64,000 nt of DNA from Thiohalobacter thiocyanaticus (lineage in GTDB: Bacteria; Pseudomonadota; Gammaproteobacteria; Thiohalobacterales; Thiohalobacteraceae): positions 310,001-374,000 of the forward strand of contig NZ_AP018052.1 in the NCBI RefSeq assembly GCF_002356355.1, written 5' to 3'. The position numbers were made by a program, and so were the translations under genes. Numbering within the stretch: the first letter of the stretch is position 1; each line of letters begins with the position of its first letter. Shown in pieces: positions 37,700 through 61,311 of the stretch. The notes under the pieces are model-generated. The model ran no database searches, was not told the DNA's origin, and worked only from the letters and a program-made list of their open reading frames with translations.

Positions 37700-38858
37700 G
37701 TCCGAATACACCTTTGTCGATCAGCCCGCGGCACTCGAGGCCGCCTGCCGGGAAATGCGTCGCCACGACTGGCTGGCGCTGGATACCGAGTTCATCCGGG
37801 AAAAGACCTTTTACCCGAAACTGTGCCTGATTCAAGTTGCCACCCCGGAATTGCGGTTGTTCTGCATCGATCCGCTGGCACTGGATATCGCGCCCCTGCT
37901 GGATCTGTTCTACGACCCCGGCATTACCAAGGTGCTGCACGCCGCCCGTCAGGATCTGGAGATCTTCCATCAGCTGCGCGGCAGCCTGCCCGGTCCGGTG
38001 TTCGACACCCAGCTGGCCGCCCCGCTGCTGGGGTTGCCCGAGCAGATGGGTTACGCCAATCTGGTGCGCGAGCGCCTGGGCGTGGATCTGCCCAAGGGCC
38101 ACAGCCGCACCGACTGGGCGCAGCGCCCGCTGTCTGAAGACCAGCTGCGCTATGCCGCCGATGACGTGAACTACCTGGCGCAGCTGTATCCGCCGCTGCA
38201 TGATGAGCTTGCCGCCAAGGGTCGGCTGGAATGGCTGGCACCGGATTTTCAGATCCTGCTGGAGCCCGAGACCTATATCGTCCATCCCGAAGCGGCCTGG
38301 CTGCGTATCAAGGAGGCCAATCGGCTCAAGGGCGCGAGTCTGTCCATTCTGCAGGACCTGGCCGCCTGGCGCGAGGAACGGGCCCGGCGCGAGGACAAAC
38401 CGCGCAAGTGGATCCTGCCTGACGATGCCCTGGCCACCCTGGCCCGGCTCAAGCCCAAACGCAAGGTGGAACTGGAGCGGGTGCGCGGGCTCAACCCCGG
38501 TCTGATCCGTCAGTTCGGCGACGCCCTGATCGAGCGCATCCAGGCCGCCCGCGGCCGCGAACCGCAGCCGCTGCCGGCCTTCACCCGACTGCCGCCGCTC
38601 ACCGCCGCCGAGGAGGCCGCGCTGGACCTGCTGCAGGGGACGCTGCGCCTGATCGCCGACACCAACGGCCTCAACCCCTCGGTGCTGGGAGGGCGCAAGG
38701 ACCTGGAGAAGCTGCTGCGCGGGCGCGACGACTGTGCCCTGCTGCAGGGCTGGCGGCGCAGGCTGGCGGGCGACACCCTGCAGGCGGTACTGGCCGGGGA
38801 TTACCGCGCCGGGATCAGTGCCGGCCGGCTGGAACTGGAGCCGCCGCTCAGCGGCTGA
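37698..38858 (+). CDS. rnd: Ribonuclease D
   Basis: A 386-residue 3'-to-5' exoribonuclease acting on tRNA precursors. The DEDD catalytic set is visible: [15 protein letters not shown] (first D and E), [13 protein letters not shown] (third D), and [14 protein letters not shown] (last D with Tyr). An HRDC domain follows ([17 protein letters not shown] and [18 protein letters not shown]). Start MSEYTFVDQ at 37698 is preferred; an ATG three codons upstream is possible, and neither has a good Shine-Dalgarno site. Its 3' end overlaps convergent dtd by 11 bp. Confidence 0.94.
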
Positions 38859-39297
38859 CCGGGACCTGCAGCCAGAAGGTCACCGGGCCGTCGTTGGTCA
38901 GGCTGACCTGCATGTCGGCGCCGAAGCGCCCGCAGGCGACGTCGGAATGCCGCCCCCGCGCCTGCCCCACCAGATAGTCGAACAGGTGCTTTCCCGCCTC
39001 CGGCGTGGCCGCCGGAGTGAAGCTCGGCCGCAGGCCTTTACGGGTGTCCGCGGCCAGGGTGAACTGCGGCACCAGCAGCAGCCCGCCGCCGGTGTCGGCC
39101 AGCGACAGGTTCATTTTCCCGTCAGCGTCCGGGAACACCCGGTAGCCCAGCAGCCGCTCCAGCAGCCGGTCGGCCTGGGCCTGAGTATCGCCCTGTTCCA
39201 CCCCGATCAGGACCAGCAGCCCGCGGCCGATGGCCCCGACCGTCTCGCCGGTGACCGTCACCCGTGCCTCGCTTACCCGCTGCAGCAGCCCGATCAT
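38848..39297 (-). CDS. dtd: D-aminoacyl-tRNA deacylase
   Basis: A 149-residue editing enzyme that removes D-amino acids from tRNA. The Gly-cisPro motif [11 protein letters not shown] is intact. The other active-site block reads [16 protein letters not shown], with Pro where the family usually has Ser (SQFTLAAD). Otherwise full length. It lies 141 bp downstream of prolyl iminopeptidase in the same direction, with a family C repeat between. Confidence 0.95.
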
Positions 39298-39438: not shown

Positions 39439-40395
39439 TCAGAAGGCCCCCAGCTTGTCGGCGAAACTGTCGGTGGCGCCGACCAGTGCCTCGATGATGC
39501 CGGGTTCGCTGGCGGCATGGCCGGCATCGGGCACGATCTGCAGGTCGGCCTGCGGCCAGACCCGGTGCAGGGCGACGGCCTGTTCCACCGGGCAGACGCA
39601 GTCATAGCGGCCGTGGACGATCACCCCCGGGATGTCGCGCAGCCGGTCGGCCCGGTCGAGGATCTGGTCCGGTTCCAGGAAGCAGTCATTGACGAAATAG
39701 TGGGCCTCGATCCGGGCCAGGCTGAGCGCGGTATAAGGCGCCCCGAAGTGCTCGATCACCGCCTCCCGCGGCAGCAGGGTGGAGGCGCGCGCCTCCCACA
39801 GCGCCCAGGCCTTGGCCGCCTGCATCCGATGGACCTCGTCGTCGCTGGTCAGGCGGGCGTGGTAGGCCCGGACCATGTCGCTGCGCTCGGCCGGCGGGAT
39901 GAGTTCCAGGTATTCCTCCCAGGCCTCCGGGAACAGGCGTCCGGCACCGTCCTGATAGAACCAGGCGATGTCGCGTGGCCGGCACAGAAAGATGCCGCGC
40001 AGGATCATTGCCAGCACCCGCTCGGGATGGGTCTGGGCATAGACCAGGCCCAGGGTGGAGCCCCAGGAGCCGCCGAATACCACCCAGCGTTCGATGCCCA
40101 GATGGGCGCGGATGCGCTCCAGATCCGCGACCAGGGTATGGGTGGTGTTGCCTTCCAGTTCGGCGTGCGGGGCGGAGCGGCCGCAGCCGCGCTGGTCGAA
40201 CAGCACGATGCGGTAGCGTTCGGGGTCGAAGAAGCGCCGGTGATAGGGCTCGCAGCCTCCGCCCGGGCCGCCGTGCAGGAACACCACGGGCAGACCGGTG
40301 GGATTGCCGCACTCCTCCACATGCAGGACATGCGGGGGGTCGACGTCCAGCGTGTGCTGGACATAAGGCTTGATATCGGGATACAGGCCCGCCAC
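39439..40395 (-). CDS. pip: Prolyl iminopeptidase
   Basis: A 318-residue alpha/beta hydrolase (peptidase S33) removing N-terminal proline. HGGPGGGC forms the oxyanion hole, the nucleophile Ser is in FGGSWGSTLGL, the Asp in HGRYDCVCP and the His in PDAGHAASEPG. The start codon is GTG with a perfect GGGAGG six bases upstream. A GTAAGC-type palindrome lies just upstream. The pip-dtd order is common. Confidence 0.95.
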   Translation of the reverse strand: MAGLYPDIKPYVQHTLDVDPPHVLHVEECGNPTGLPVVFLHGGPGGGCEPYHRRFFDPERYRIVLFDQRGCGRSAPHAELEGNTTHTLVADLERIRAHLGIERWVVFGGSWGSTLGLVYAQTHPERVLAMILRGIFLCRPRDIAWFYQDGAGRLFPEAWEEYLELIPPAERSDMVRAYHARLTSDDEVHRMQAAKAWALWEARASTLLPREAVIEHFGAPYTALSLARIEAHYFVNDCFLEPDQILDRADRLRDIPGVIVHGRYDCVCPVEQAVALHRVWPQADLQIVPDAGHAASEPGIIEALVGATDSFADKLGAF

Positions 40396-40417: not shown

Positions 40418-40435
40418 TGTAAGCATAGGCTTACA
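40418..40435. promoter_or_regulatory. Candidate operator upstream of pip
   Basis: TGTAAGC and GCTTACA form a perfect inverted repeat with 7-base arms and a 4-base centre, 23 bp upstream of the pip start codon. It could be a repressor site or a small hairpin in the leader. No T-run follows on either strand. Confidence 0.4.
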
Positions 40436-40439
40436 GAGA

Positions 40440-40672
40440 AATCATCAATTACTGACTGTCCGGCGACTGTGTCGCCGTGAAATCATATCTTGCGGCCTCA
40501 AAGGTTCCGCAGGATGCGGAACCTGAGGTTAGGCTCGGCATGACTCGCGATGCGGAATCAATATCTGGGAGGGTATCCCCATCGCGGGTAACGTGTCGCC
40601 AATAAGCTTAATAACCATGCCTTCCAGCCTCTTTTGGCAACTCACCCGGTACCCACCGGGTTTTTTTTTGCC
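40440..40672 (+). ncRNA. Candidate small RNA with CsrA/RsmA-type hairpin
   Basis: Between pip and dsrE2, both on the minus strand, is a + strand intrinsic terminator with no + strand gene before it, so a non-coding transcript is the simplest reading. Hairpins visible are GGCGACtgtGTCGCC (about 40462-40476) and a 9-bp stem GGTTCCGCA/TGCGGAACC with loop GGA at 40503-40523, which contains CAGGATG (40510-40516), the sequence preferred by CsrA/RsmA. The GGA loop exists only in the + orientation. A GGGAGGGTATCCC hairpin follows at 40567. The 5' end and promoter could not be placed, so only the 3' end is firm. Confidence 0.4.
40644..40669 (+). terminator. Intrinsic terminator, + strand
   Basis: ACCCGGT-ACCC-ACCGGGT, a 7-bp GC-rich stem with four-base loop, is followed by nine T residues. 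On the minus strand the A-run precedes the stem, so it works only rightward. Confidence 0.85.
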
Positions 40673-40835: not shown

Positions 40836-41432
40836 TCAGATGAACAGGCAGACGTCGGACTCGCGTGCCACCGGCATGAAATAGGTCGCGCCGACATAGT
40901 CCAGACCGTCGATGAACTCGCTGGAATCGAAGCCGAACACGTCCACCGTCATCTGGCAGGCGGACATCTTCACCTCAGCCTCGATGCACAGCTCGCGCAG
41001 TTCCTCGACCGTGGCCACGCCCTTGTTCTTGAAGGTCTTCTTCATCAGGGAGGTGGCGACCTTCTCGAAGCCCGGGATGCCGGCCATGATCAGGTTGGGC
41101 ATCGGCCAGGTGATGTTCTGGAACCACTTGGGACCGAAGGGCATCTTCATCGGCATGGCCGGGTTGCCCAGCGGGCTGACCTCGGAGGGGATCTCCTTCT
41201 TCAGCAGCAGCAGGCCGTAGAAGGTGAAGAAGATGTGGGTGTCCCAGCCCAGGGCCGCGGCCGTGGAGGCCAGGATGAAGGGCGGATAGGCCCAGTCCAG
41301 GGTGCCCTTGGTGGCGATGATCGCCATGCTCGGGGTCTTGCTCTGTTCGATGGCCTGCAGCTTCTGCGGCAGCAGTTCGTCGAGCTTCTCGCTCAGCCAC
41401 TGGTCCATCTGTTCGGGGGTTGTATCTGACAT
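40836..41432 (-). CDS. DsrE2-type sulfur-trafficking protein
   Basis: A 198-residue protein of the DsrE/DsrF-like superfamily, DsrE2 subgroup. TPSMAIIATKGTLDWAYPPF starts the fold, and the hydrophobic PPFILASTAAALGWD-to-FYGLLLLKK stretch is the membrane-seeking part of this subgroup. MSACQMTVDVFGF carries the conserved cysteine; a second Cys is near the end (SDVCLFI). In sulfur oxidisers DsrE2, rhodanese and TusA pass persulfide sulfur to oxidation enzymes. The rhodanese gene is 207 bp upstream on the same strand; tusA is not present. GAGGAGGAG lies upstream of the ATG, and a terminator follows the stop. Confidence 0.88.
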   Translation of the reverse strand: MSDTTPEQMDQWLSEKLDELLPQKLQAIEQSKTPSMAIIATKGTLDWAYPPFILASTAAALGWDTHIFFTFYGLLLLKKEIPSEVSPLGNPAMPMKMPFGPKWFQNITWPMPNLIMAGIPGFEKVATSLMKKTFKNKGVATVEELRELCIEAEVKMSACQMTVDVFGFDSSEFIDGLDYVGATYFMPVARESDVCLFI

Positions 41433-60195: not shown

Positions 60196-61311
60196 ATGGA
60201 TGCAGACCGTCTGCGCGACTGGCTGACGCTGTGGCACAGCCCCGGCCTTGGCGCGCACACCTTCAATCAGCTCATCGAGGCCACCGACGGCCGGCCCGAA
60301 CAGGCCCTGCGGGATCCGCCGGCATGGCTCGGGGCGGACCTGCGCGCGACCCTGCGCCGACCCGATCGGTCGGGTGTCGAACGGGATCTCGTCTGGCGCG
60401 AGTCCGACCCGGGCAACCATATCATTACCCGCGCGGATGCGGCCTATCCGCAGTTGCTGGCCGCTATCCCGGACCCGCCGCCGCTGCTGTATGTGCACGG
60501 CGACCCCGGGCGTCTCAATGACCCTCAGCTGGCCCTGGTCGGCAGCCGCAACCCCACCCGCCCCGGGCGGGACAACGCCTTCGAGTTCGCCCGCTACCTG
60601 GCCGCGGCCGGGCTGACCCTGACCAGCGGCCTGGCGCTGGGGGTGGACGCTGCCGGCCACCAGGGGGCGCTGAAGGCCGACGGCTATACCCTGGCCGTGA
60701 TGGGGACGGGACTGGACCGGGTCTATCCGGCCCGTCACCGCGACCTGGCCCATGCCATCGTGGCGGCGGGCGGGGCGCTGGTCTCGGAGCTGCCTGTCGG
60801 CAGCCCGCCGCGGGCCGAGCACTTTCCGCGCCGCAATCGCATCATCAGCGGGTTGAGCCTGGGTGTGCTGGTGGTCGAGGCCGCGCTGCGTTCGGGCTCG
60901 CTGATCACCGCCCGCGCGGCCCTGGAGCAGGGCCGCGAGGTGTTCGCCATCCCCGGTTCCATCCATAACCCGCTTGCCCGCGGTTGCCACGCCCTGATCC
61001 GCCAGGGCGCCAAACTGGTGGAGACCGGTGGCGATGTGCTCGAGGAACTGCATGCCCTGGCCAGCATTGCGTTGTCGCAGCCGGATCCCCCGGCGCCGGC
61101 CACGGCCGCCGCCGGTGCTGTCCGGCCGTCGCCGGAGCAGCGTAAGTTGCTGGAACAGATGGGTTATGAACCCGTCACAGTGGATCAACTGGTTACAGCC
61201 AGTGGATTGACGCCGGAGGCGGTTTCCTCCATGCTCCTGATCCTGGAATTGGAGGGGCGGGTGGCCAGCCAGGCCGGCGGCGCCTATCTCCGGCTCAATG
61301 ACGAGGTCTGA
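60196..61311 (+). CDS. dprA: DNA processing protein DprA
   Basis: A 371-residue protein that protects incoming single-stranded DNA and loads RecA during transformation. A SAM-like N-terminus (LTLWHSPGLGAHTFNQLI), then the Rossmann-like DprA core (LALVGSRNPTRPGRDNAFEF, GLALGVDAAGHQGAL, HFPRRNRIISGLS), then a C-terminal winged helix (MGYEPVTVDQLVTASGL). Start at MDADRLRDW, with GGGAGG upstream. Confidence 0.95.
   Translation: MDADRLRDWLTLWHSPGLGAHTFNQLIEATDGRPEQALRDPPAWLGADLRATLRRPDRSGVERDLVWRESDPGNHIITRADAAYPQLLAAIPDPPPLLYVHGDPGRLNDPQLALVGSRNPTRPGRDNAFEFARYLAAAGLTLTSGLALGVDAAGHQGALKADGYTLAVMGTGLDRVYPARHRDLAHAIVAAGGALVSELPVGSPPRAEHFPRRNRIISGLSLGVLVVEAALRSGSLITARAALEQGREVFAIPGSIHNPLARGCHALIRQGAKLVETGGDVLEELHALASIALSQPDPPAPATAAAGAVRPSPEQRKLLEQMGYEPVTVDQLVTASGLTPEAVSSMLLILELEGRVASQAGGAYLRLNDEV

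Follow-up and report, generated by a model that had tools for sequence, protein, structure and literature searches.

A probable GacA-activated Csr/Rsm-type non-coding RNA divergent from pip in Thiohalobacter

The closest described systems to the locus analysed here are the RsmX, RsmY and RsmZ RNAs of Pseudomonas and CsrB and CsrC of Escherichia coli. The consensus palindrome of their activator GacA/UvrY is given as TGTAAG-N6-CTTACA (PMC4682653; PMC4950607). CsrA dimers are described as bridging GGA sites 10–63 nt apart, and the SELEX ligands of CsrA, for which the consensus RUACARGGAUGU is quoted, mostly have stems of four pairs or fewer (PMC7652899). RgsA of Pseudomonas has a single GGA, is controlled indirectly by GacA and needs RpoS (PMC2375449). 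McaS and GadY of E. coli, each with two or more GGA, act by base-pairing and also bind CsrA (PMC7652899).

The window, a 64-kb stretch of a Thiohalobacter genome (3.23 Mb, single contig), had been suggested to encode a candidate small RNA with a CsrA-type hairpin beside pip (Table 1). Our analysis leads us to propose that positions 40494-40669 probably encode a GacA-activated Csr/Rsm-type non-coding RNA, the Thiohalobacter member of a group linked to pip or dtd.

Table 1. Features of the locus (window coordinates)
Feature	Position	Strand	Description
dtd, D-aminoacyl-tRNA deacylase	38848-39297	-	TIGR00256, 185 bits; next to pip in the window
pip, prolyl aminopeptidase	39439-40395	-	TIGR01249, 422 bits; divergent neighbour marking the locus
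GacA/UvrY box TGTAAGCATAGGCTTACA	40418-40435	none	Perfect 18-nt palindrome, 0 mismatches to TGTAAG-N6-CTTACA
Inverted repeat CGGCGAC-TGT-GTCGCCG	40461-40477	none	Between box and -10; presumed promoter DNA, not RNA
Predicted weak -10, CATATC	40484-40489	+	Putative; CATACT in T. thiocyanaticus; begins 57 nt past box centre
Small RNA	40494-40669	+	About 176 nt; predicted start; basis, conservation and fold
GGA-presenting hairpin	40503-40523	+	9 Watson-Crick pairs around GGA (40512-40514)
Long hairpin	40531-40609	+	Apical loop GGGA presents second accessible GGA (40568-40570)
Conserved 3' module GCCTTCCAGCC...TGGCA	40619-40641	+	Includes small GCC/GGC hairpin
Intrinsic terminator	40644-40669	+	7-bp stem ACCCGGT-ACCC-ACCGGGT (40644-40661), T run to 40669
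dsrE-like gene	about 40836-41432	leftward	PF13686, 160 bits

The locus, its promoter and the host network

The terminator is indeed an orphan on the plus strand, as first described: it lies between the leftward pip and dsrE-like genes, and no plausible plus-strand gene was found ahead of it. Three of its seven stem pairs show compensatory changes on both sides across seven sequences. Like the loci of Csr/Rsm-type RNAs, this one is non-coding and intergenic and has a terminator of its own. The pip product shares 92% identity with its counterpart in Thiohalobacter thiocyanaticus.

The strongest sign of a link to the Gac system is the GacA box, which the original prediction did not mention. It is perfect in all three Thiohalobacter genomes and is the single match in the window even at two mismatches (0.31 expected). 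Genome-wide, the 3.23 Mb hold three perfect boxes; at one mismatch or fewer there are six, against one for the reversed control. The predicted -10 element, with no -35 element at the same promoter, places the start of the RNA near 40494, and the centre of the box is then at about -68; the GacA site of rsmY in P. aeruginosa is at -75 (PMC4950607). The RNA had been thought to span from 40440. Its predicted 3' end near 40669 stands, whereas its start is probably near 40494, because the first of the hairpins said to surround the GGA hairpin (40461-40477, not perfect in T. thiocyanaticus) lies between the box and the -10 and would be promoter DNA; the long hairpin lies within the predicted RNA.

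The box might instead serve pip, with no RNA gene at the locus and a terminator that is a chance hairpin. Only 22 nt separate the box from the start of pip, and because the box is palindromic it has no direction of its own. However, its distance to pip is variable, at positions 23–98 for loci with zero mismatches, whereas on the RNA side the distance from box to -10 is 53–57 in most loci and 75–78 in 3 of 16, and in two genomes (G190 and G035) the RNA stands beside dtd without pip. We regard the absence of an RNA gene as highly improbable and control of pip by the box as unlikely; production of a GacA-activated RNA at the locus seems very probable.

The host genome has the components expected of one that uses a CsrA-antagonist RNA: CsrA gave one match (119 bits), UvrY/GacA is encoded two genes from uvrC (294 bits against a cut-off of 280) and a GacS/BarA-like hybrid kinase carries an sCache_4 domain (28.5 bits against a cut-off of 22.1). 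This domain, which we take to be typical of BarA/GacS kinases, was found among 14 control genomes in E. coli only.

The other two perfect boxes of the genome (L002:1501-1518 and L003:1501-1518) lie upstream of a possible PEP-CTERM-type protein gene without a Pfam match and of a GGDEF gene, respectively; both have counterparts in G001, and the GGDEF locus also in G003 and G006. A one-mismatch box (L004:1501-1640, C1:1247118) precedes a C39-peptidase ABC transporter gene, whose leader has GGA motifs within a hairpin; this box is conserved in G001, and a related gene in G003 also has a box ahead of it. Another (L120:1501-1690, C1:2739020 onward), just past the valS terminator, is identical in G001 and decayed in T. 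thiocyanaticus. The leader that follows, with about nine GGA, lies ahead of a response regulator with an HD-GYP-like domain and is a possible second CsrA-binding RNA. When both sides of 15 of the 16 listed box sites were scanned for a second sponge in the same genome, only the site in the window had a terminator within 420 nt after the box.

Fold and GGA sites of the RNA

The segment 40455-40669 has a folding z-score of -4.28, and none of 200 shuffles was as stable. The predicted consensus fold of the RNA consists of the GGA hairpin, the long hairpin with the GGGA loop, the small GCC/GGC hairpin and the terminator. The 9-bp stem with a GGA loop is as originally described, and a tenth pair (40502/40524) is possible. 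Among 3000 dinucleotide shuffles of the RNA, none placed GGA in the loop of a perfect stem with at least nine pairs, and eight did so on a stem with at least seven. The plus strand of the window holds two such sites with stems of at least nine pairs, the other being a 9-bp hairpin at 60915-60937.

A single GGA site had been named as an argument against a sponge. The RNA holds four GGA, close to the 2.5 expected from composition. Those at 40512 and 40568 are predicted to be unpaired (1.0 and 0.98, respectively) and the other two to be buried. None of the four is in an ANGGA context, and neither accessible GGA has A at -2. The two accessible sites are 53 nt apart, within the range of 10–63 nt, and a single CsrA dimer could in principle span them. 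The 9-bp stem of the main hairpin, set against the mostly four or fewer pairs of the SELEX ligands, counts against the Csr/Rsm reading.

Identity to the two congeners is 97% and 90% over the RNA body, compared with 80% and 79% past the terminator. The GGA hairpin is 95% and 81% identical, positions 40530-40595 are identical at 66/66 and 63/66 sites and the 3' module, the best conserved part in the family, at 33/33 (100%) and 32/33 (97%); both GGA loops are the same in all three species. Within the genus only one pair of the fold has substitutions at both of its positions, and in T. thiocyanaticus the GGA hairpin has lost two of its pairs, so that the case for structure in Thiohalobacter rests on stability and not on covariation.

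A 42-codon frame that begins with GTG at 40477 is open in all three congeners, which might suggest a small protein. We find this scarcely credible and reject a coding potential for the frame: the GTG precedes the predicted start of the RNA, most substitutions relative to T. thiocyanaticus alter the amino acid, and conservation at the level of the RNA explains the open frame.

Relatives in the family and beyond

Within the family, pip was found in nine of 11 genomes, and in seven of these nine the RNA is kept, with an invariant GCCTTCCAGCC...TGGCA and a terminator. The TCCAGCC of the 3' module is invariant in 12 sequences. No RNA was seen at pip in G006. On the pip side in G004 (L140) there is a remnant of the RNA, adjoining an inverted repeat, about 110 bases long, that has been inserted there. 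The GacA boxes in the other genera of the family are degenerate. A possible second RNA, resembling RsmY, occurs at another family locus (L093, L094 and L109, from G005, G009 and G007), where a GacA box comes before a short stretch with GGA and a hairpin that looks like a terminator.

That the RNA locus beside pip can disappear, as G004 and G006 show, would suit a decaying sponge, an RNA still made in Thiohalobacter but functionless; so would a GGA number near chance and the missing ANGGA. Decay to this point is nevertheless very unlikely, given that the RNA body and the 3' module are conserved above the sequence past the terminator and that all three species have a perfect GacA box.

For the divergent side of pip, we surveyed the best 80 of 305 pip loci, some from bacteria outside the class, within 250 nt of pip using the pattern TGTARG-N6-CYTACA, which had been widened from the published TGTAAG-N6-CTTACA after four loci had been seen. 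A zero-mismatch box was present in six of these 80 loci, two of them from congeners of the window genome, compared with none of 80 for the reversed pattern and a mean of 0.017 in 60 shuffled sets. With up to two mismatches, 11 of the 80 had a box (shuffle mean 1.47, maximum 7) and 69 had none, while at three mismatches pattern and control did not differ (21/80 each). In the 200 nt past the promoter, the 11 boxed loci hold 72 GGA compared with 31 TCC; the 69 unboxed loci average 2.57 GGA and 3.03 TCC.

RNAs with 6–9 GGA and a terminator are found at L015, L048, L061, L070, L034 and L083. In a comparison of 17 RNAs, in which the ends of the relatives were set by hand at the nearest -10-like site and terminator and which omits L021, L049, L071, L023 and L187-L189, 10 of the 17 have 6–9 GGA, and ANGGA is missing altogether only in the three Thiohalobacter RNAs. 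Among the GGA-rich relatives, G010 has eight GGA and G003 seven.

Homologues beside pip, which the original prediction had suggested looking for, were found by a search that did not start from pip. A model of the conserved 3' end, built from twelve 3' ends (R2), was searched against 369 genomes of the class and, at its threshold of E up to 1e-6, was specific and matched eight. Four of these (G000, G003, G035 and G190) are training genomes, and G077, whose score of 56.0 bits equals that of the training locus L083, probably is the genome from which that locus comes. The three new matches (G278, G050 and G195) all adjoin a prolyl aminopeptidase gene, with one small gene between in G278 and G195. 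All three have GGA motifs and a box, which is perfect to the widened pattern in G050 and weaker in the others, and GTACAGGGATGT of G195 fits the SELEX consensus. Another model (R1) matched 174 of the 369 genomes, mostly at 20–34 bits; of seven loci read among these low-scoring matches five looked like ordinary terminators and were rejected, and two (G190 and G035) were relatives. In G035 (L181, C3:253900-256600) the RNA occurs as three tandem copies, each with a degenerate GacA-like box ahead of it, flanked by dtd and by a gene whose product resembles an exported substrate-binding protein; two of the three have one accessible GGA each, on a perfect hairpin.

At gathering scores, Rfam gave no match in the window and one tRNA only in 19 related loci; at E up to 10 nothing of the Csr/Rsm kind appeared, and the permissive matches, at 16.8 bits or less and mainly over the terminator end, were set aside as far below gathering scores. 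A literature search, in which subscription journals are mostly uncovered, returned no description of a pip- or dtd-linked Gac/Rsm RNA in these lineages, which is weak evidence that the locus is undescribed, and the papers retrieved for prolyl aminopeptidase or proline iminopeptidase with CsrB or rsmZ are, as far as their available text goes, on other subjects. The main text of a study that predicts RsmA-regulating RNAs (PMC5568370) contains no words beginning 'Thio', 'Chromat' or 'peptidase'.

Proposed role and comparison with known systems

By far the best interpretation of the locus is a Gac/Rsm RNA, because box, RNA and terminator recur at a fixed place, the homologues are GGA-rich and the host encodes CsrA and GacA. 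Points against it are the weak -10 with no -35, the lack of an Rfam match and the 69 of 80 pip loci that have no box at two mismatches or fewer. Phosphorylated GacA (UvrY), bound at the palindrome, would activate the promoter of an RNA of about 175 nt. This RNA would belong to a group of Csr/Rsm-type RNAs that several gammaproteobacterial lineages encode either divergently from pip or adjacent to dtd. Most members of the group, with their 6–9 GGA motifs, should antagonise CsrA, and sponging by RNAs of this family is likely. The Thiohalobacter copy is reduced to two GGA loops, a strongly conserved 3' module and the terminator, and would still relieve repression by CsrA. The box, its place, the conservation, the GGA-rich relatives and the CsrA, GacA and kinase genes are all read from the DNA itself; transcription, the start site, control by GacA, binding of CsrA and relief of its repression are inferences.

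Of the original prediction, the small RNA and its Gac/Rsm link are strongly supported by the perfect box, the place at pip, the GGA-rich homologues and the CsrA, GacA and kinase of the host. The AlgZR and c-di-GMP genes of the window, cited in that prediction, play no part in the case made here. The sponge reading is only tentative for the window copy, with its two accessible GGA, no ANGGA and a GGA number near that given by composition. At the level of control this copy would be Csr/Rsm-like; we put its antagonism of CsrA at slightly better than even, and it may instead bind a single CsrA dimer or base-pair with mRNAs by way of the 3' module.

Taken further, the latter idea makes the Thiohalobacter RNA a GacA-controlled one that has passed beyond a sponge role, binds CsrA little and acts mainly by base-pairing through the conserved CUUCCAGCCUC, which is complementary to purine-rich, Shine-Dalgarno-like sequences. 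It would account for the near-complete conservation of the 3' module and for the loss of ANGGA in Thiohalobacter only among the 17 RNAs, and GacA-controlled RNAs with one GGA that are not sponges are described, as with RgsA (PMC2375449). We nevertheless think it unlikely: the three congeners do not differ in either GGA loop, and the GGA-rich relatives carry the same 3' module, which therefore need not replace sponging.

The Csr/Rsm reading can be extended, tentatively and with considerable doubt, to the whole group. The pip/dtd-linked RNAs would then form a family not described before. Its sponge would have worn down, independently in Thiohalobacter and in two of the three tandem copies of G035, to one or two perfect GGA hairpins per RNA. 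The 3' UCCAGCC-GGC module would have been retained to act in trans, so that a single GacA-controlled RNA couples CsrA titration to direct pairing with mRNAs. The locus anchors the Gac/Rsm network at a set genomic position in sulfur-oxidising and other gammaproteobacterial lineages. It also provides, at one place, a natural gradation of RNAs from rich to poor in GGA, in which the minimum number of GGA sites for antagonism of CsrA, as well as the role of the 3' module, can be tested.

With RsmX, RsmY and RsmZ and with CsrB and CsrC, the RNA shares an upstream GacA/UvrY palindrome, an intrinsic terminator of its own, GGA in hairpin loops and a host with GacS/GacA and CsrA, and its relatives hold 6–9 GGA. 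It differs from them in its genomic place beside pip or dtd, in having no Rfam match, in its conserved UCCAGCC-GGC 3' module and in its two accessible GGA without ANGGA. RgsA is likewise linked to GacA and poor in GGA; unlike RgsA, the window RNA has GGA-rich homologues and a perfect GacA box at its promoter, which argues for direct control. McaS and GadY, likened to it by features and not by sequence relation, share the small number of GGA and a conserved segment that is predicted possibly to pair with mRNA, whereas the window RNA is set apart by its apparent control by GacA.
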